In this document: in pieces, positions 18,538 through 30,502 of the stretch
Numbering within the stretch: the stretch's first letter is position 1
Layout: every line of letters starts with the position of its first letter
Source: Vulcanimicrobiota bacterium
Lineage (GTDB): Bacteria; Vulcanimicrobiota; Vulcanimicrobiia; Vulcanimicrobiales; Vulcanimicrobiaceae
Assembly: GCA_003161435.1 (NCBI GenBank)
Contig: PMOS01000020.1
Span: 145,439 to 209,438 of the forward strand
Direction: 5' to 3'
DNA: 64,000 nt
Notes under the pieces: generated by a model
What the model was told of the DNA's origin: nothing
The model's database searches: none
The model's input: the letters and a program-made list of their open reading frames with translations, nothing else
Made by a program: the position numbers and the translations under genes

Positions 18538-19959
18538 ATGACAAGCACGATCGCCGTCGCGCCCGAGGCGACCGCGCCTGCCAGGCCCGGCGCGGAACTC
18601 GATCCGCGAACACGGGCACTCCTGTACGCGCCGATCGTGCCGCTGCTGCTGACGCTCGCCTGGCCGAATGTGGTGGTGATGCTGGCCCAGGCCAGCACCG
18701 GGCTCATCGAAACCTTTTGGGTTTCACGTCTGGGCACCGACGCGCTGGCCGGAATGGCGCTCGTCTTCCCGGGCGTCATGCTGATGCAGATGATCTCCGC
18801 CGGCTCGCTGGGCGGCGGGATCTCTTCGGCGATCGCGCGCGCGCTCGGTGCGCGGCGTCCCGCCGACGCCGACGCGCTGGTCGTTCACGCGCTGATCATC
18901 AACGTCGCGCTGGGGCTGCTCGTGTCGGCGCTGTTCTTGCTGTTCGGACCCGAGCTGTACCGCGCACTCGGCGGACGCGGTGCGTCGCTCGCCGCGGCGT
19001 TGAAATACTCCAACGTCGTCTTCGCCGGCAACGTGCTGCTGTGGGTGATGAACGGGCTGGCCAGCGCGGTGCGCGGGACCGGCAACATGCTCTTTCCCGC
19101 GCTGGTCGTCGTCGGTGGTGCGCTGATTCTGGTCCCGCTCTCGCCGCTGCTGATCTTCGGCATCGGCCCGTTCCCCGCGCTCGGCATCGCCGGCGGCGGC
19201 GTCGCGATGCTGATCTCCTTTGCGGCCGGGGCCGCGGTGCTCGCGTACTATGTGCTCTCGGGCCGCAGTGTGGTGCGCATTCGGCGCAGCCCGGTGCAGC
19301 GCAAGTTCTTCACCGACATCTTGATCGTCGGCGGCGTCGCGACCGTATCGTCGCTGCAGACCAACGTCACCATCGGTGGCGCAACCGCGCTCGTCGCAAC
19401 CGTCGCGGGACCGGCCGGCGTCGCCGGGTACGGCACCGGCGCGCGTTTGGAGTACCTGTTGATCCCGCTGGTGTTCGGGCTGGGCGCGCCGCTCGTCGCG
19501 CTGGTCGGAACGAACATCGGCGCCGGACAGCCGAAGCGCGCGTTGCGCATCGCGTTCGTCGGCGCCGCGATCGCGTTCGTCATGACCGAGATCATCGGTG
19601 CGTCCGCGGCGATCTGGCCGCACGCGTGGCTCGGGTTGTTCGGTTCCGATCCCGGCATGCTCGCGACCGGCACGGCATATCTGCACGTCGTCGGGCCGTT
19701 CTACGGCTTCTTCGGCCTCGGCTTGTGCTTGTACTTTGCCTCGCAGGGAGCGGGTCGTCTGGGTTGGCCGCTGGTGGCCGGGTTTCTGCGGATGTTCGTG
19801 GGACTGGCCGCCGGCTGGTTCGCGTTGCGGATGACCGGTTCGTTGACGGCATTGTTCGTCGCGCTCGGCCTGGGGATGTTCCTCTACGGCGCTCTCGTGA
19901 CGTTCGCCGTCGCGCGCGGTTCATGGTTTCGGCGCGCCCCGACTGCGGGTTCGGCCTAA
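18538..19959 (+). CDS. MATE family efflux transporter
   Basis: ~12 hydrophobic helices, IPLLLTLAWPNVVVMLAQASTGLIETFWVSRLGTDALAGMALVFP; start ATG 18538. Confidence 0.92.
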   Translation: MTSTIAVAPEATAPARPGAELDPRTRALLYAPIVPLLLTLAWPNVVVMLAQASTGLIETFWVSRLGTDALAGMALVFPGVMLMQMISAGSLGGGISSAIARALGARRPADADALVVHALIINVALGLLVSALFLLFGPELYRALGGRGASLAAALKYSNVVFAGNVLLWVMNGLASAVRGTGNMLFPALVVVGGALILVPLSPLLIFGIGPFPALGIAGGGVAMLISFAAGAAVLAYYVLSGRSVVRIRRSPVQRKFFTDILIVGGVATVSSLQTNVTIGGATALVATVAGPAGVAGYGTGARLEYLLIPLVFGLGAPLVALVGTNIGAGQPKRALRIAFVGAAIAFVMTEIIGASAAIWPHAWLGLFGSDPGMLATGTAYLHVVGPFYGFFGLGLCLYFASQGAGRLGWPLVAGFLRMFVGLAAGWFALRMTGSLTALFVALGLGMFLYGALVTFAVARGSWFRRAPTAGSA

Positions 19960-20543
19960 GCGCCGAACCCTTTGCGCGACCCCATCGCCTGCATGAAGCG
20001 GTCGCGAATCTGGGCCGGATCGCGCGGCGGTTGCGCGATCGCCGGGCCGCGCTCGATCCGCGCGCCGATCAGCGACGGTCCGGTTCGTTCGAGCGCGGCC
20101 TGCACGAGGCGCACGAAGTCGCTGGTGTCCTGCGCCCACGCGCTGTGCGCGATCCCGGTGGCGCGCGCGACCTCGACGAAATCGCAGCGCTGCGCGCTTG
20201 CGGTCGGCTGCCCGCCGGTGATCTCGTAGACGCCATTGTCCATCACCACCAGGGTGAGATTCGCCGGCGCGACCATCGCGATCGTTGCGAGGCAGCCGAG
20301 ATTCATCAGCAGCGAGCCGTCGCCTTCGATGCCGATCACGCGCCGCCGTGGCTGCGCGAGCGCAACGCCGAGCGCGATCGGGAACGCCAGCCCCATGCTG
20401 CCCAGCATGTAGAAGTTCTGCGAGCGGTGGCCGGCGGCGTACAGGTCGAAGTTGGTGTTGCCGATCCCCGCGACGACGGCCTCGTCGCGCAGCATGCCCA
20501 CGAGCCCGCGCATCAGCTCGATGCGGCTGAGCGTCGCCGTCAT
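19956..20543 (-). CDS. TPP-dependent decarboxylase, PP-domain subunit (sulfopyruvate/phosphonopyruvate decarboxylase beta-like)
   Basis: MTATLSRIELMRGLVGMLRDEAVVAGIGNTNFDLY...GIEGDGSLLMNLGCLATI...VVMDNGVYEITGGQ; TPP GDG...N motif; ATGA overlap. Confidence 0.82.
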   Translation of the reverse strand: MTATLSRIELMRGLVGMLRDEAVVAGIGNTNFDLYAAGHRSQNFYMLGSMGLAFPIALGVALAQPRRRVIGIEGDGSLLMNLGCLATIAMVAPANLTLVVMDNGVYEITGGQPTASAQRCDFVEVARATGIAHSAWAQDTSDFVRLVQAALERTGPSLIGARIERGPAIAQPPRDPAQIRDRFMQAMGSRKGFGA

Positions 20544-21064
20544 GCCGCGAAGACCTTGCCGCCGGTCAAGAGCGGCGAGAGCACCAGCACGACGGGTGTC
20601 TGGGTGGCGTGGGCCTGCACGATCGAACGGTCGACGACGAAGGCGAGATCTTCGAGACGCTCGATCGTCTGGTGCGGGATTCCGAGCGCGTCGCAGACGG
20701 GCGCGACGACGCGGCTCGACCATACCTGGCCGACGTTGACCTCGCCGAGCGAGCCGCGTTCGGAGACGAGCATCACGACCGGGATCTGATACGCGACCGC
20801 CAGCGACGCGAGCGCGTTGGGCACGTTGCCGAACCCGCTGGTCTGCATCATCAGAATGCTGCGCAGCCCGCCCATCCACGCGCCCGCGCAGATCCCGACG
20901 CCTTCCTCTTCGCGCGTCGCGGTGAACGCGGTGAAGAACGGGTCGGCGTGCACGCCGTCGATCAGTGGGATGAGGACCTTGTCGGGGACGTAGACGGCGA
21001 GACGAACGTCGTGTTTCCTCAACGCCGCCAATACGACGCCGGCCCAGGCGCTATCGCTTGGCAA
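20540..21064 (-). CDS. TPP-dependent decarboxylase, PYR-domain subunit (sulfopyruvate/phosphonopyruvate decarboxylase alpha-like)
   Basis: VPDKVLIPLIDGVHADPFFTAFTATREEEGVGICAGAWMGGLRSILMMQTSGFGNVPNAL. Confidence 0.82.
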   Translation of the reverse strand: MPSDSAWAGVVLAALRKHDVRLAVYVPDKVLIPLIDGVHADPFFTAFTATREEEGVGICAGAWMGGLRSILMMQTSGFGNVPNALASLAVAYQIPVVMLVSERGSLGEVNVGQVWSSRVVAPVCDALGIPHQTIERLEDLAFVVDRSIVQAHATQTPVVLVLSPLLTGGKVFAA

Positions 21065-22100
21065 GGGCTTCCGCGATCACGCGCGTAGCGACGAGGTCGT
21101 TGTAGGCGTACTCCTCCGAGATGAGGCCGACGGCCTGGTGGAATTTCACGGCCCGCGTGAAGCCGGCCTCGCTGGGCAGCGGGCTCGACGGCACCGACGT
21201 CGTGCGGTAGATCTCCAGCGTGAGGTCGAGCGCTTTGGGATCGAGGTTCGGGTAGAACGCTTTGAGCAGATCCCGGCTGCGCGCCGGGTCTTTGAGGATC
21301 GTCGTGCACGCGTCGGCGTAGCCGCGCACGAAGCCCACGATCGCCGCGTGCTTCTTGTCGATGTCGTCCTGCGTCGTGTAGACGACCCCGTGCAACTGGT
21401 GGGCCATCGCCGGGACGTCGCCGCGCGCCGGGCTGACGAACGTCTCGCCGATCCCTTCGACCTGCGCTTGCTGCCCGAGCGGCCACGCGAACGACACCAT
21501 GTCGACTCGATTGGCCTGCAGCGCGGCGAGAACGGCCGGGATGTTGGCGCCGACGTTGACGAGCTGCACGTCGCGCGTGCGATCGATGTTGCCCTGCTTG
21601 AGCAGATACAGCACGAGCGCTTCGGTGCCGCTGCCGGGGCCGGTGATACCGATATTTTTTCCGCGCATGGCGCGGATCTTGTCGCTCAGGCTGCTCTTCT
21701 CGTTCAGCTTCGACGCTGCAAGAAAGTCCTTCGAGGCGATGATGTCGACGTAGAACGCGTTGGTGCCGGCCGAGATGATCTTCCCCGAGCGACCGGCTTT
21801 GACGAGCGAGAAGACGTCGGTGATGACCGACGAGCCGATGTCGATGCTGCCGGCGGTCACGGCCGTGTCGGTGAGCGCGCCGGTCGAGAACTCGGTCACC
21901 GTGCCGATGTCGACACCGTTGCGCTGAAAATAGCCGAGCTGCTCGCCGACGAACAGCGGGAAGTGGGCGATCGAGTGACCGATCGAACCGACGGCCAGGT
22001 TCGTCACGGCCGCTGCGGCGGCCGGTTTCAGCATCGCCGGCGCGAGCACTGCGGCGGCCGTCGTTCCGAGAAAATGCCGGCGGATCAAGCGTGCGGACAT
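21051..22100 (-). CDS. ABC transporter substrate-binding protein (SsuA/TauA/NMT1-like) with Tat-like signal
   Basis: MSARLIRRHFLGTTAAAVLAP (RRxFL) then AHFPLFVGEQLGYFQRNGVDIGTV...ITGPGSGTEALVLYLLKQGNID. Confidence 0.88.
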   Translation of the reverse strand: MSARLIRRHFLGTTAAAVLAPAMLKPAAAAAVTNLAVGSIGHSIAHFPLFVGEQLGYFQRNGVDIGTVTEFSTGALTDTAVTAGSIDIGSSVITDVFSLVKAGRSGKIISAGTNAFYVDIIASKDFLAASKLNEKSSLSDKIRAMRGKNIGITGPGSGTEALVLYLLKQGNIDRTRDVQLVNVGANIPAVLAALQANRVDMVSFAWPLGQQAQVEGIGETFVSPARGDVPAMAHQLHGVVYTTQDDIDKKHAAIVGFVRGYADACTTILKDPARSRDLLKAFYPNLDPKALDLTLEIYRTTSVPSSPLPSEAGFTRAVKFHQAVGLISEEYAYNDLVATRVIAEALAKR

Positions 22101-22107
22101 GGATACC

Positions 22108-22893
22108 TCAGTTGGGACGCAGCGAGAGGTTTGCGTCGACCTTCCAGACCGACGTGCGCCGGTCGACGAAGTTCACCAGCGCGTTGAGAATCGTGGCGAG
22201 AATGGTCAGGACGATCAACGCCGCGAAGACGCCGGCAGTATCGAACTGGCTTGCCGCCGAGGAGATCAGGTAGCCGATGCCGCGGTTGCTGGCGATCAGC
22301 TCGCCGACGACCGCGCCGATCAGCGCGTACGGGATCGAAATGCGGACGCCGGTCAGTGCTGCGCTCAGTGCGTGCGGGACGATGACCTTCAACAGAACAT
22401 CACGCGATGAGGCGCCCATCAGCCAGACCGCGTTGATCAAATCGGGGTCGACGTTGCGCACGCCGGCGACCGTGTTGAAGAAGACGATGAAGAAGACGGT
22501 GACAGTAGCCAGGATGATCTTCATCCAGATGCCGACGCCGAACCACACGATGAACAGCGGCGCGAGCGCGACCTTCGGTATCGAGTAGACCGCGACGATG
22601 AAGGGATCGACGACTTCGCCCAGCTCGCGCTGCGGCCCGATCACGAAGCCTGCGACGACGCCCGCGACGGCGCCCAGGACGAACCCGCCCAGCGTCTCTT
22701 CGACCGTGATCGAGGTGTGGAACAGCAGCGTGCCGTCGGCCAGCCACTGCCCTTCGCGCAGCCAGATGGCGCTCGGGCTGCTGATGTAGAACGCCATTCC
22801 GTGCAGCGCCGACAGCGCTTGCCAGACCGCGACGATTGCCAAGAACAGACCCAACCGCCAGGCGAAGATCCGCGGCGTTCGCTTGGCGTTCAC
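22108..22893 (-). CDS. ABC transporter permease (SsuC/TauC-like)
   Basis: GTG start 22893 overlapping upstream stop; ALAPLFIVWFGVGIWMKIILATVTVFFIVFFNT, six hydrophobic helices. Confidence 0.9.
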   Translation of the reverse strand: MNAKRTPRIFAWRLGLFLAIVAVWQALSALHGMAFYISSPSAIWLREGQWLADGTLLFHTSITVEETLGGFVLGAVAGVVAGFVIGPQRELGEVVDPFIVAVYSIPKVALAPLFIVWFGVGIWMKIILATVTVFFIVFFNTVAGVRNVDPDLINAVWLMGASSRDVLLKVIVPHALSAALTGVRISIPYALIGAVVGELIASNRGIGYLISSAASQFDTAGVFAALIVLTILATILNALVNFVDRRTSVWKVDANLSLRPN

Positions 22894-23675
22894 GAAACCG
22901 CAGCGGGTTCGGCGTAGCGATCGGCCGACAATGCTTCCCACAGGCGCGCTTCGATCGCGTGGAACTCGGGGCTGCGCCGGATCGCGACCACGTCGCGCGG
23001 GCGCGCCAGCTCGATGCGCTCGTCGCGCACGATACGTCCGCGAGCACCGAGCACGACCACGCGGTCGCCCAGCGCGATCGCCTCGTCGAGGTCGTGGGTC
23101 ACGAAGACGACCGTCTTCCCGCTGTCGCCCCACAGGCGCAACAGCTCGTTCTGCATCTCGACGCGCAGCTGCGCGTCCAAAGCCGAGAACGGCTCGTCGA
23201 GCAGCAGCAGCTCCGGATCGGCGACCAGCATGCGGGCGAGCGAGGTGCGCCGCGCCATCCCGCCGGAGAGCTCGCGCGGGTAGGCCCGCTCGCGGCCACG
23301 CAATCCGACCAACTCCACCAGCTCGCGCGCCTTGCTCGTCCGCTCGGCCGCCGCGACGCCGCGAATCTCGAGCGGCGTCTCGATGTTGCGCAGGACGTCG
23401 CGCCAAGGCAACAGCGTATCCTTTTGGGTCAAGTAGCCGACGCCGGGGCGCGGGCCTTGCACCGCGGTGCCGCCGTTGGTGACGCGGCCGCTCGTCGGCG
23501 CGATCAAACCGGCGATGATGCTGAGCAGGGTCGATTTTCCGCAGCCGCTCGGCCCGACGAAGCAGACGAAGCTGCCGTCCTCGATGTCGAGCGAGACGGC
23601 GTCGAGCGCGACCTGTTCGACCCCGCCGCGAAAGAAGACGCGGCCGACCGCTTCCATCCGAACGAGCGCGCTCAC
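22890..23675 (-). CDS. ABC transporter ATP-binding protein (SsuB/TauB-like)
   Basis: GPSGCGKSTLL, LSGGMARRTSLARML, LLLLDEPFSALD; likely GTG start 23675. Confidence 0.92.
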   Translation of the reverse strand: MSALVRMEAVGRVFFRGGVEQVALDAVSLDIEDGSFVCFVGPSGCGKSTLLSIIAGLIAPTSGRVTNGGTAVQGPRPGVGYLTQKDTLLPWRDVLRNIETPLEIRGVAAAERTSKARELVELVGLRGRERAYPRELSGGMARRTSLARMLVADPELLLLDEPFSALDAQLRVEMQNELLRLWGDSGKTVVFVTHDLDEAIALGDRVVVLGARGRIVRDERIELARPRDVVAIRRSPEFHAIEARLWEALSADRYAEPAAVS

Positions 23676-23772
23676 GCTGCGCCAGCCGTGTCCATTGACA
23701 CTGTTAGCACAATTGTCGACAATCGGCGTCGGCAGGCGCAGAATCCTCCTGCCGAACCGGGACGGAGAAACG

Positions 23773-25263
23773 ATGGCGACCGTAGTGGAATCACCGCGCG
23801 AATACGCGCAGCTCTTCATCGCCGGTGAATGGGTCGCGCCGCACTCGGGGCGCACCATCGCTTCGATCGACCCGTCGAGCGAGGAGATCTGGGCGTCGGT
23901 CGCCGAGGCGGACGAGGTCGACGTCGACCGCGCCGTCGTTGCCGCGCGCGACGCGCTGCGCGGACCGTGGGCGAGGCTCACGCCCTCGGCGCGCGGTGCG
24001 CTCATCCATCGGCTCGGGGCGCTGATCGCGCGCGACGCGCGCAAGCTCGCCGAGCTCGAGAGCCGCGACAACGGTAAACCGCTGCGCGACACGCTCGGCG
24101 AGATGCAGCGCGCCGCCGATTGGCTGACGTTCTTCGCCGGGGCCGCGGACAAGATCTACGGGGAGACGATCCCGTACAAACCCGACGCGCACGCGTTCAC
24201 CCGGCGCGAACCGGTCGGCGTCGTCGGCGCCATCCTGCCCTGGAACTCGCCGATGAGCCTATACTCCTGGAAGCTCGGGCCGGCGCTCGCGACCGGCTGC
24301 ACGGTCGTCCTCAAACCCGCCGAGCTCACGCCGGTCAGCGCGATGGAGCTCGGTGCCCTCATCACCGAGGCGGGCTTCCCGGCCGGCGTCGTCAACATCG
24401 TCCCCGGCTACGGACATACGGCCGGCGCCGCGCTGGCGGCGCATCCCAAGGTCAACAAGATCACCTTCACCGGCGAGCACCGCACCGCACAAGAGATCAT
24501 GCGCAGCGCGGCCGTGAACCTCAAACGCATCTCGTTCGAGTGCGGCGGAAAGTCGCCGCATATCATCTTCGAGGACGCGGATCTCGAGCGCGCGGCGACC
24601 GTTGCGACGCACGGCGCGTTTCGCTCGACCGGTCAGTCGTGCTCGATCGGATCTCGGCTGTTCGTCCAGCGCTCGATCTACGACCGCACGATCGATGTGC
24701 TGGTCCAGCGCGCCGCGCGCATCCGGGTCGGGATGCCGCTCGACGCCGCGACGCACATCGGGCCGCACACGTCGGCCGAGCAGCTGGCCAAGACGAACCG
24801 CTACATCGAGTACGGCAAGGACGCCGGCTTTCGGCTGCTGCTGGGCGGGAAACGTCCGGCCGGCTTCGAGCGCGGTTATTTCGTCGAACCGACGATCTTC
24901 GCCGACGTCGACAACGGTTCGCGGTTAGCGCAAGAAGAGATCTTCGGGCCGGTGCTGGCGGTGATCCCCTTCGACACCGAAGCCGAGGCCGTGGCGATGG
25001 CCAACGACACGCAGTACGGCTTGGTCGCGGGACTTTGGACCCGCGACGTCGGCCGCGCGCACCGCGTCGCCGCGCAGCTCGAGTCCGGTCTGGTTTCGGT
25101 CAACACGTATCGGCCGGTGCACTGGATGCTGCCGTACGGCGGCTACAAGATGAGCGGCATCGGCCGCGAAAACGGCTTCGACGCCGTCAACGAGTACCTC
25201 GAAACGAAAACCGTCGTGATCGACTACGCCGAAGCTCCACCGCCCGATCCGTTCGCCGACTGA
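23773..25263 (+). CDS. Aldehyde dehydrogenase family protein
   Basis: FECGGKSPHIIFEDADLERA, GQSCSIGSRLFV, EEIFGPVLAVIPF; ATG 23773. Confidence 0.93.
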   Translation: MATVVESPREYAQLFIAGEWVAPHSGRTIASIDPSSEEIWASVAEADEVDVDRAVVAARDALRGPWARLTPSARGALIHRLGALIARDARKLAELESRDNGKPLRDTLGEMQRAADWLTFFAGAADKIYGETIPYKPDAHAFTRREPVGVVGAILPWNSPMSLYSWKLGPALATGCTVVLKPAELTPVSAMELGALITEAGFPAGVVNIVPGYGHTAGAALAAHPKVNKITFTGEHRTAQEIMRSAAVNLKRISFECGGKSPHIIFEDADLERAATVATHGAFRSTGQSCSIGSRLFVQRSIYDRTIDVLVQRAARIRVGMPLDAATHIGPHTSAEQLAKTNRYIEYGKDAGFRLLLGGKRPAGFERGYFVEPTIFADVDNGSRLAQEEIFGPVLAVIPFDTEAEAVAMANDTQYGLVAGLWTRDVGRAHRVAAQLESGLVSVNTYRPVHWMLPYGGYKMSGIGRENGFDAVNEYLETKTVVIDYAEAPPPDPFAD

Positions 25264-27683: not shown

Positions 27684-28856
27684 ATGATCGCATCGAGTCC
27701 GGCCGGGATTCCCCGCACGATCTTCGATCCCGAGCACGCGATCCTGCGCGATGCGATGCGCCGCTTCTGCGAGCGCGAGATCGCGCCGTTCCACAACGCG
27801 TGGGAAACCGAGGGCGTCGTTCCGCGCGCGATCTGGCGGCGTGCCGGCGAGCTCGGCTTCCTTTGCATGGCGCTGCCGGCGGAGTACGGCGGCGCCGACG
27901 CCGACTTTCGCGCGTCGGTCGTCTTCACCGAGGAGCTGGCGCGCATCGGCGCCACCGGACCCGGCTTCGCGCTGCAATCCGACATCGTTGCGCCCTACAT
28001 CTTGCACTACGGCAGTCCCGAGCAGAAACGGCGCTGGTTGCCGCGCTTGGCGTCGGGGGAGATCGTCAGCGCGATCGCGATGAGCGAACCCGGCGCGGGC
28101 AGCGACCTCGCCGCGGTCGCGACGCGCGCGGAACGCATCGACGGCGGCTACGCGATCAGCGGTTCGAAGACGTTCATCACCAACGGCGTTCTGGCCGATC
28201 TCGTCATCGTCGTCGCGAAGACCGATCCCAGCGCGGGAAGCCGCGGCGTCACGTTGTTCTTGGTCGAGCGCGGTATGCCCGGATTCGGGAGCGGGCGCCC
28301 GCTCGAGAAGATCGGCCTGCGGGCGCAGGACACCGCCGAGCTCGCGTTCGATCGCGTGCGTGTCGGTGACGACGCCGTGCTGGGCGAGCTCGACGGCGGA
28401 TTCAAGCTGCTGATGAGCGAGCTGGCGCAGGAACGGCTCTCGATCGCGGTCACCGCGGTGGCGGTCGCCGAGACGGCGCTCGCGCAGACGATCGCGTATT
28501 GCGGCGAGCGCGAGGCCTTCGGCAAGCGCATCCTCGACTTTCAGAACACGCGCTTCTCGCTGGCCACGCTCAAGACGAAAATATCGCTGGCGCGGGTGTT
28601 CGTCGATCGCTGCATCGAGCTGCACTGCCGTGGTGAGCTCGACGCGACGACGGCGGCGATGGCGAAGCTCGAGGCGACGGAGCTTCAATTCCGCGTGCTC
28701 GACGATTGCCTGCAGCTGCACGGCGGTTACGGCTACATGCTGGACTATCCGATCGCGCGCGCGTGGGCCGACGGGCGCGTGCAGCGCATCTACGGCGGCT
28801 CGAACGAGATCATGCGCGAGATCATCGGCCGGTCGCTCGAAGGGAGACGCGAATGA
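27684..28856 (+). CDS. Acyl-CoA dehydrogenase
   Basis: AMSEPGAGSDLAAVATRAERIDGGYAISGSKTFITNG; HGGYGYMLDYPIARAWADGRVQRIYGGSNEIMREIIGR. Confidence 0.94.
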   Translation: MIASSPAGIPRTIFDPEHAILRDAMRRFCEREIAPFHNAWETEGVVPRAIWRRAGELGFLCMALPAEYGGADADFRASVVFTEELARIGATGPGFALQSDIVAPYILHYGSPEQKRRWLPRLASGEIVSAIAMSEPGAGSDLAAVATRAERIDGGYAISGSKTFITNGVLADLVIVVAKTDPSAGSRGVTLFLVERGMPGFGSGRPLEKIGLRAQDTAELAFDRVRVGDDAVLGELDGGFKLLMSELAQERLSIAVTAVAVAETALAQTIAYCGEREAFGKRILDFQNTRFSLATLKTKISLARVFVDRCIELHCRGELDATTAAMAKLEATELQFRVLDDCLQLHGGYGYMLDYPIARAWADGRVQRIYGGSNEIMREIIGRSLEGRRE

Positions 28857-30502
28857 CCGCAACGGCCGTCGCTCCGGCGCTCGCCGGGCTGATGATGGAT
28901 CGCTCGCTGCAGATCTCACGGCTGATCGACCACGCCGCGCTGTGGCACGGCGATATCGAGATCGTCACCCAGCGCACGGGTGCGCCCGACGAGCGGTCGA
29001 CCTACCGCGAAGTGCGCGCGCGCAGCGCGCAGCTGGCGCACGCGCTGGCGGAGCGACTGCACGTCGCGGCCGGCGAGCGCGTCGCGACGTTCGCTTGGAA
29101 CACGCAGCGCCACCTGGAGCTCTACTACGGCGTGTCGGGGAGCGGTGCCGTGCTGCACACGGTCAACCCGCGCCTGTTCGCGCCGCAGATCGTGTACATC
29201 ATCAACCACGCGCGCGACCGCTTCGTGTTCCTCGATGCCGACCTCGTGCCGGTCCTCGAACCGCTGGCGGCGCAGCTGCCGGCCGTCGAAGGCTACGTCG
29301 TACTGTGTGGCGAGGCGGAGATGCCCGCGACCTCGTTGCCCAACGCCGTCGCGTACGAGTCGCTGATCGCCGGACTCCCCGGCGAGATCGAGTGGCCCGA
29401 GCTCGACGAACGCACCGCGTCGTCGCTCTGCTATACGTCGGGTACGACCGGCAATCCCAAAGGCGTCTTGTACTCGCACCGTTCGACCATACTGCACACC
29501 TTCGCGCAGGCGGCTTCGTGGCAGGCCGGTCCCGGATCGCAAGCCGCGATCCTGCCGGTCGTCCCGCTGTTCCACGCCAACGCATGGGGCTTACCGTATC
29601 TGGCGCCGATGCAGGGCTCGAAGCTCGTCTTCGCCGACCCGCATCTCGATCCGGCCGAGCTCTACGGTGCGCTCGAACGCGAGCAGGTGACGCTCACCTG
29701 CGGCGTACCGACGATCTGGCTGCGCCTGCTCGACTATCTCGAGCGCAACGACCTGCGTTTTTCGAGCCTCAAGCTGCTGGGCGTCGGCGGATCGGCGCCG
29801 CCACGCGCGTTGATCGAAGCGTTCGAGGTGAAGTACGGCGTCACCGTGCTCAACGCGTGGGGGATGACCGAGACGAGCCCGGCGTGCACGTACGGAACGC
29901 CCAGGCCGGCACACGACGTGCTCCCGCAACGCATCGACTATAAGACGCGCGCGGGCCGCGCGCTGTTCGGCGTCGAGATTCGAATCGTCGACGACGACGG
30001 CGCGTCGCTGCCGTTCGATGGTGTCGCGCAGGGCGAGATCCATGTGCGCGGCCCGTGGATCGCTGCGGGTTATTTCGAGGACGACGAGGCGACCGCGCGC
30101 GGCGTGACGGCCGACGGCTGGTTGCGCACCGGCGACATCGCGTCGATCGACACGCACGGATACGTGCAGATCCGCGACCGGTCGAAGGACGTGATCAAGT
30201 CGGGCGGCGAGTGGATCAGCTCGATCGAGCTCGAGAACGTTGCCGTCGCGCATCCCGCCGTCGCCGAAGCGGCCGCGATCGGCATCCCGCACCCCACCTG
30301 GTCGGAACGCCCCGTGCTGTACGTCGTCGCGGCGCAGGGCCACGAGCTCGACGCGGCGAGCGTCATCGCGTTCCTCGACGGGAAGGTCGCGAAGTGGTGG
30401 ATCCCCGACGAGGTGATCGTCGTCGCGGAGCTCCCGCACACGGCAACCGGGAAGATCTCGAAGCGAACGCTGCGCGAGCGCTACGCGCCGGCGGCGACGT
30501 AG
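28853..30502 (+). CDS. AMP-binding acyl-CoA ligase
   Basis: SLCYTSGTTGNPKGVLYSHRS; GWLRTGDIASIDTHGYVQIRDRSKDVIKSGGEWIS; ATGA overlap. Confidence 0.94.
   Translation: MTATAVAPALAGLMMDRSLQISRLIDHAALWHGDIEIVTQRTGAPDERSTYREVRARSAQLAHALAERLHVAAGERVATFAWNTQRHLELYYGVSGSGAVLHTVNPRLFAPQIVYIINHARDRFVFLDADLVPVLEPLAAQLPAVEGYVVLCGEAEMPATSLPNAVAYESLIAGLPGEIEWPELDERTASSLCYTSGTTGNPKGVLYSHRSTILHTFAQAASWQAGPGSQAAILPVVPLFHANAWGLPYLAPMQGSKLVFADPHLDPAELYGALEREQVTLTCGVPTIWLRLLDYLERNDLRFSSLKLLGVGGSAPPRALIEAFEVKYGVTVLNAWGMTETSPACTYGTPRPAHDVLPQRIDYKTRAGRALFGVEIRIVDDDGASLPFDGVAQGEIHVRGPWIAAGYFEDDEATARGVTADGWLRTGDIASIDTHGYVQIRDRSKDVIKSGGEWISSIELENVAVAHPAVAEAAAIGIPHPTWSERPVLYVVAAQGHELDAASVIAFLDGKVAKWWIPDEVIVVAELPHTATGKISKRTLRERYAPAAT

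Follow-up and report, generated by a model that had tools for sequence, protein, structure and literature searches.

Which compound is imported and degraded by a gene cluster that joins an importer to a split thiamine diphosphate (ThDP) decarboxylase and an aldehyde dehydrogenase (ALDH)? The question is raised by six genes in a stretch of 64,000 nucleotides, here called the window, from Vulcanimicrobiota contig PMOS01000020.1 of a soil bacterium (contig C44 of genome G000; 3.8 Mb, 83% complete), whose close relatives carry the name Candidatus Eremiobacterota or WPS-2. The original prediction assigned these genes to C3 sulfonate or phosphonate metabolism, with an unrecognised 2-oxo acid as fallback. 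As set out below, the decarboxylase falls into a clade of its own, and on balance the cluster is best regarded as a catabolic module for the uptake and shortening of an organic acid, a reading drawn from sequence comparison.

The gene cluster and its conservation

The five genes of the operon lie on the reverse strand. They encode an ATP-binding cassette (ABC) ATPase (22890..23657; ABC_tran, 106 bits; alternative GTG starts at 23663 or 23675), a permease of the SsuC/TauC/NrtB superfamily (22108..22893; BPD_transp_1, 114 bits), an NMT1-like periplasmic binding protein of 349 residues with the twin-arginine leader IRRHFL (21051..22100; NMT1_2, 73.1 bits), and the two subunits of the decarboxylase: PYR (alpha), with 174 residues (20540..21064; TPP_enzyme_N, 32.7 bits), and PP (ThDP-binding, beta), with 195 residues (19956..20543; TPP_enzyme_C, 84.8 bits). 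PYR starts with TTG, and its true start is uncertain by a few codons. Between adjoining genes there are overlaps of 4, 14 and 4 bases and a spacing of 7 bases. The ALDH of 496 residues is encoded divergently on the forward strand (23773..25263; Aldedh, 587 bits), which confirms the predicted arrangement of a five-gene operon and a divergent ALDH. All six Pfam scores lie above cut-off.

Three congeners (G003, G004 and G008) have the same six genes in unchanged order, with protein identities of 63-88%, so that their grouping is not a matter of chance. Identity to the G000 proteins amounts to 82-88% for the ALDH, 73-81% for the ATPase, 75-82% for the permease, 76-80% for PYR, 72-77% for PP and 63-78% for the binding protein (76-78% in G008 and G003; 63% in G004). 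As the original prediction supposed, importer, split 2-oxo-acid-type ThDP decarboxylase and ALDH form one syntenic unit. Searches of seven further congeners, some with incomplete genomes, gave no close homolog of PP or of the binding protein.

Outside the phylum, the closest PYR/PP pairs are found in Bradyrhizobium, in other Alphaproteobacteria and on one Thermomicrobiales contig (PP identity 59-67%), and PP and PYR of the window clade lie side by side in all 78 of its non-Eremiobacterota loci. A plasmid-wide search for close homologs of the binding protein yielded none above about 33% identity. The patchy distribution of the PYR/PP pairs suggests that the six-gene set may have spread partly by horizontal transfer.

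Phylogeny and distinguishing residues of the decarboxylase

The PP subunit reaches the cut-off of NF004813 (PRK06163; 278.4 versus 240 bits), on which its Bradyrhizobium homolog scores 345 bits. It carries the ThDP cofactor motif GDG...N (GDGSLLMN...MDN), and PYR contains the conserved glutamate region (TREEEGVGI). In the test with TIGR03845/TIGR03846, both subunits miss the sulfopyruvate decarboxylase models, PYR with 124.1 bits on ComD (cut-off 147.95) and PP with 163.7 bits on ComE (cut-off 221.5). The phosphonopyruvate decarboxylase model Ppd (TIGR03297; cut-off 312.5) is missed as well, with 139.6 bits for PP and 72.4 for PYR.

In a tree of PYR and PP combined, the window enzyme groups with those of Bradyrhizobium with a clade support of 100, apart from Leisingera ComDE and outside the fused AepY/Ppd enzymes. 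Closest to the window clade is another clade of split enzymes (own support 100; both together 85). The expected placement with ComDE or Ppd is thus not borne out, and a ComDE annotation of this clade is probably incorrect.

Two positions set the clade apart. PYR position 28, following 'VP', is Asp in all 24 members of the window clade in the tree; the corresponding residue is Cys in Leisingera ComD, in a Priestia protein from a phosphoenolpyruvate (PEP)-mutase cluster and in five of six fused Ppd enzymes. PP position 32 is Phe in the same 24 members, and the loop that carries it, GIGNTNFDL, is present in 78/78 loci. Here Leisingera ComE has Gln, whereas Arg is found in RhiF and in all seven phosphonopyruvate-type enzymes compared (GxxSRE/D loop). 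Both positions may contact the substrate, given where the PP loop lies in other ThDP decarboxylases. One-chain phosphonopyruvate-decarboxylase-like enzymes with the Arg motif occur elsewhere in the phylum (L136, L137, L138, L139 and L142).

Sulfonate and phosphonate substrates

A ComDE-type locus would import a C3 sulfonate, decarboxylate the sulfopyruvate to sulfoacetaldehyde and oxidize this to sulfoacetate. The split organization, the similarity to ComD and ComE at the superfamily level, and an importer superfamily that takes in SsuABC and TauABC are compatible with this route, but the missed cut-offs, the separate clade and the replacement of the Cys/Gln pair of Leisingera ComDE by Asp/Phe make it very unlikely. 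The description of the binding protein as SsuA/TauA-like holds at the superfamily level only, its score on SsuA_fam (TIGR01728) being 52.6 bits against a cut-off of 163.5, and the permease reaches no NCBIfam equivalog cut-off. Sulfoacetaldehyde acetyltransferase (Xsc), already noted as missing near the locus, remains below cut-off in all four cluster-bearing genomes (best 281 versus 676 bits). The sulfolyase-type GD_AH is absent from G000 (83% complete) and present in relatives; searches for GD_AH and PEP mutase are not decisive, since generic members occur. The ALDH is not SafD-like: its best models are BADH (528 bits), StyD (519) and HpaE (513), and SafD is not among its best 25, all of at least 252 bits. 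The context of Leisingera ComDE also differs, with a TRAP transporter and a histidinol-dehydrogenase-like gene.

For a phosphonopyruvate decarboxylase in phosphonate catabolism or synthesis, the argument is structural, as the nearest solved structure is RhiEF, a split phosphonopyruvate decarboxylase (9iz3/9iz4; PMC12141560). However, in addition to the missed Ppd cut-off and the Phe in place of the Arg, the cluster contains no phosphonate gene and the ALDH misses the phosphonoacetaldehyde dehydrogenase model (PhnAcAld_DH, for PhnY-type enzymes; 264 versus 636 bits), which renders this assignment extremely improbable. PEP-mutase-family genes do occur in the four cluster-bearing genomes, as generic members. 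Taken together, family cut-offs, tree, residue positions and the Xsc search rule out C3 sulfonate or phosphonate chemistry as the leading explanation. With these substrates unsupported, the unrecognised 2-oxo acid becomes the best reading.

Gene context in relatives

G004 has two additional genes in the ALDH-ATPase interval, abutting the operon, which encode a DUF1932 NAD-binding dehydrogenase and a DUF6282 hydrolase-like protein; none of the other congeners searched has DUF6282. Their closest plasmid homologs (48% and 51% identity, respectively) are found together on Thermus oshimai pTHEOS01, in a cluster with a 4-carboxy-4-hydroxy-2-oxoadipate (CHA) aldolase-type gene, a PIG-L protein, catechol 2,3-dioxygenase, a ring-hydroxylating dioxygenase and an ALDH.

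The importer and the DUF1932 gene recur in G106 and G107, two genomes from another genus of the same family, with identities of 58-59% for the ATPase, 62-64% for the permease, 44-46% for the binding protein and 59-61% for DUF1932. The window-type split decarboxylase is not beside this importer. The genes that follow encode FAH, an FAD monooxygenase, an amidohydrolase, a Rieske oxygenase, an SDR, a one-chain ThDP enzyme (PRK07064) and an ALDH, with a UbiX gene adjacent. Judged by these family assignments, the cluster places aromatic-type oxygenases alongside importer, ThDP enzyme and ALDH; the estimated contamination of the two genomes is 7-8%, and the cluster is present in both.

These contexts bear on whether importer and decarboxylase/ALDH have separate functions and share an operon by chance. 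Bradyrhizobium pairs that lack the window importer, and a G106/G107 importer that lacks the split decarboxylase, would fit such an arrangement. It is nevertheless unlikely, as the genes overlap, their order is kept in four genomes, and even in G106/G107 a ThDP enzyme and an ALDH accompany the importer.

Both genomes also hold a more distant split decarboxylase pair (L169:4982-6128 and L168:3599-4554; 33-36% identity) near binding-protein genes that look NMT1-type, in L169 with a Rieske-type gene at the end of the contig. The two genomes yield 23-24 LigB-type dioxygenase and 30-38 VanA_C Rieske matches (L166 and L167; contamination as above), a large expansion of their aromatic-degradation genes. 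LigB-type dioxygenases are present in G000 as well, and ring-cleavage genes have been reported earlier for Eremiobacterota (PMC9535955).

Near the PYR/PP pair in Bradyrhizobium-type loci, a D-2-hydroxyacid dehydrogenase is found in 61/68, TctC in 36 and an Amidohydro_2 protein in 25; one Hyphomicrobiales contig carries TctC, amidohydrolase, PYR and PP in direct succession on a single strand. The boundaries of neighbouring genes, called with a simple GC-based script, are approximate, and since a single genus supplies most of the loci, the counts cannot be treated as independent. Although the individual components differ, these loci follow the G004 logic of importer, hydrolase, dehydrogenase and decarboxylase.

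Split ThDP decarboxylases of the sister clade are repeatedly accompanied by an ALDH in Deinococcus, Bosea, Sphingobium and Variovorax, near varying sets of MmgE/PrpD, CaiB, acyl-CoA dehydrogenase (ACD), MaoC and CitE-type genes (L158:1-8461, L121:5048-12766, L123:2565-13120, L145:6402-13542, L120:1-7582 and L071:3407-7072), and the clade's Thermomicrobiales pair lies beside CaiB and ACD. This sister clade apparently represents an undescribed pathway to CoA thioesters. The tricarballylate dehydrogenase TcuA is encoded beside a split-decarboxylase pair on the Thermomicrobiales contig (L071:200-1705; 572 bits versus a cut-off of 369) and is annotated beside another on a haloarchaeal plasmid (L159:7190-8599).

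Proposed function

The uptake, decarboxylation and oxidation that the original prediction derived from importer and ALDH can be retained with an unrecognised 2-oxo acid in place of the sulfonate or phosphonate. In the order of reactions that we infer, an organic acid would be taken up by the binding protein, exported by the twin-arginine translocation (Tat) pathway, and the ABC importer. The acid would most likely be an aromatic or plant-derived 2-oxo acid or a 2-hydroxy-acid precursor of one, and in at least one relative (G004) the DUF6282 hydrolase-like protein and the DUF1932 NAD(P) dehydrogenase may prepare the substrate. A PYR-PP heteromer, with ThDP at the subunit interface, would then convert the 2-oxo acid to an aldehyde and CO2, and the divergent ALDH would oxidize the aldehyde to an acid one carbon shorter.

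The putative aromatic substrate is suggested by homologous importers and their neighbours and not by the cluster of the window itself, and several observations weigh against it. The window's own cluster holds no ring-cleavage or oxygenase gene; the Bradyrhizobium loci rely on another importer and have glyoxylate-type enzymes among their genes; and TcuA adjoins the Thermomicrobiales member of the clade. The ALDH is 47-51% identical to its counterparts in other such clusters, and many general ALDHs are at least as similar to it. The AlphaFold model of the binding protein has a predicted local distance difference test score (pLDDT) of 38, too low to point to a ligand. Finally, the tree contains a single ComDE reference, that of Leisingera, and does not extend to methanogen ComDE, full-length RhiEF or LumKL.

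Given the differing Bradyrhizobium contexts, the glyoxylate-type enzymes and the TcuA gene, the substrate could instead be aliphatic. In this serious rival, an aliphatic 2-oxo (di/tri)carboxylate would be processed and the ALDH product would enter CoA-thioester chemistry through an acyl-CoA ligase and an ACD encoded downstream of the ALDH on the forward strand (27684..30502). Arguments in its favour are the position of TcuA, next to the window clade's pair in Thermomicrobiales and to a related haloarchaeal pair, that of TctC next to many Bradyrhizobium pairs, and the CoA-linked neighbourhood of the sister clade. On the other side, the Eremiobacterota importer is NMT1-like and its G106/G107 homologs lie in an oxygenase-rich cluster, and the location of ACD and ligase beside the cluster is not kept in relatives, although it is possible that they are its downstream enzymes. 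An aliphatic pathway is accordingly held to be a real but lesser possibility.

On the 3-methylthiopropionyl-CoA ligase model the nearby ligase reaches 721 bits, short of the cut-off of 822, which raised the question of a methionine-derived route from 2-keto-4-methylthiobutyrate (KMTB) via methional to methylthiopropionate; this route was dropped, as relatives show no synteny for ligase and ACD.

Beyond the uptake-and-shortening module, we tentatively propose that the clade is a new, widespread two-subunit ThDP decarboxylase of Eremiobacterota, Bradyrhizobium and Thermomicrobiales whose substrate is a 2-oxo acid, aryl or otherwise, without a sulfo or phosphono group. In Eremiobacterota it would form part of a cassette that is shared horizontally and includes an ALDH and a dedicated importer. 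If true, an aromatic or plant acid in soil would be handled by a route not described so far. The cluster also has a bearing on the soil diet of uncultured Eremiobacterota/WPS-2. The small gene set of importer, dehydrogenase, hydrolase and ALDH gives a handle for finding the substrate of the clade.

The intergenic region

ALDH and ATPase are separated by 115 bases. This gap contains a promoter-like element on the forward strand (TTGACA-17-GACAAT; 23695..23723), which overlaps a perfect palindrome, ATTGTCGACAAT (23712-23723). A TTGACA...TTGT-N2-3-ACAA pattern is also seen in G003, G004 and G008. We take the palindrome to resemble a GntR-type operator, and the region may serve in regulation; no regulator gene was found within the cluster.

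Comparison with known two-subunit ThDP decarboxylases

Two-subunit ThDP decarboxylases are counted as rare, the known examples being those of coenzyme M synthesis, rhizocticin synthesis and LumK/LumL, described in 2025 (PMC12746152), and the window cluster places a large uncharacterized clade beside them. A literature search on DUF6282, PRK06163 or tricarballylate clusters with ThDP decarboxylases returned nothing useful.

The clade's own family, PRK06163/NF004813, is an NCBIfam "hypothetical protein" family without assigned function, and its Bradyrhizobium members lack the window-type importer and ALDH alongside. The PRK07064 enzyme and ALDH of G106/G107 share the homologous importer and the DUF1932 gene with the window-type sets, but PRK07064 is a fused three-domain enzyme whereas the window enzyme consists of two small subunits. 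ComDE has the same side-by-side organization of PYR and PP, yet the window proteins miss its equivalog cut-offs, form a separate clade and have no sulfonate genes at their locus. RhiEF, the rhizocticin phosphonopyruvate decarboxylase, is likewise a PYR plus PP heteromer and the best PDB match of both window subunits; it differs in being biosynthetic and in having Arg where the window clade has Phe. LumK/LumL, from lumichrome catabolism in Nocardioides simplex, is a split ThDP decarboxylase that serves heteroaromatic catabolism (PMC12746152). Its two subunits of approximately 20 and 23 kDa, encoded in an aromatic catabolic cluster, resemble the split enzyme of the window, a likeness drawn from the description only, and its substrate is a quinoxaline carboxylic acid (PMC12746152).

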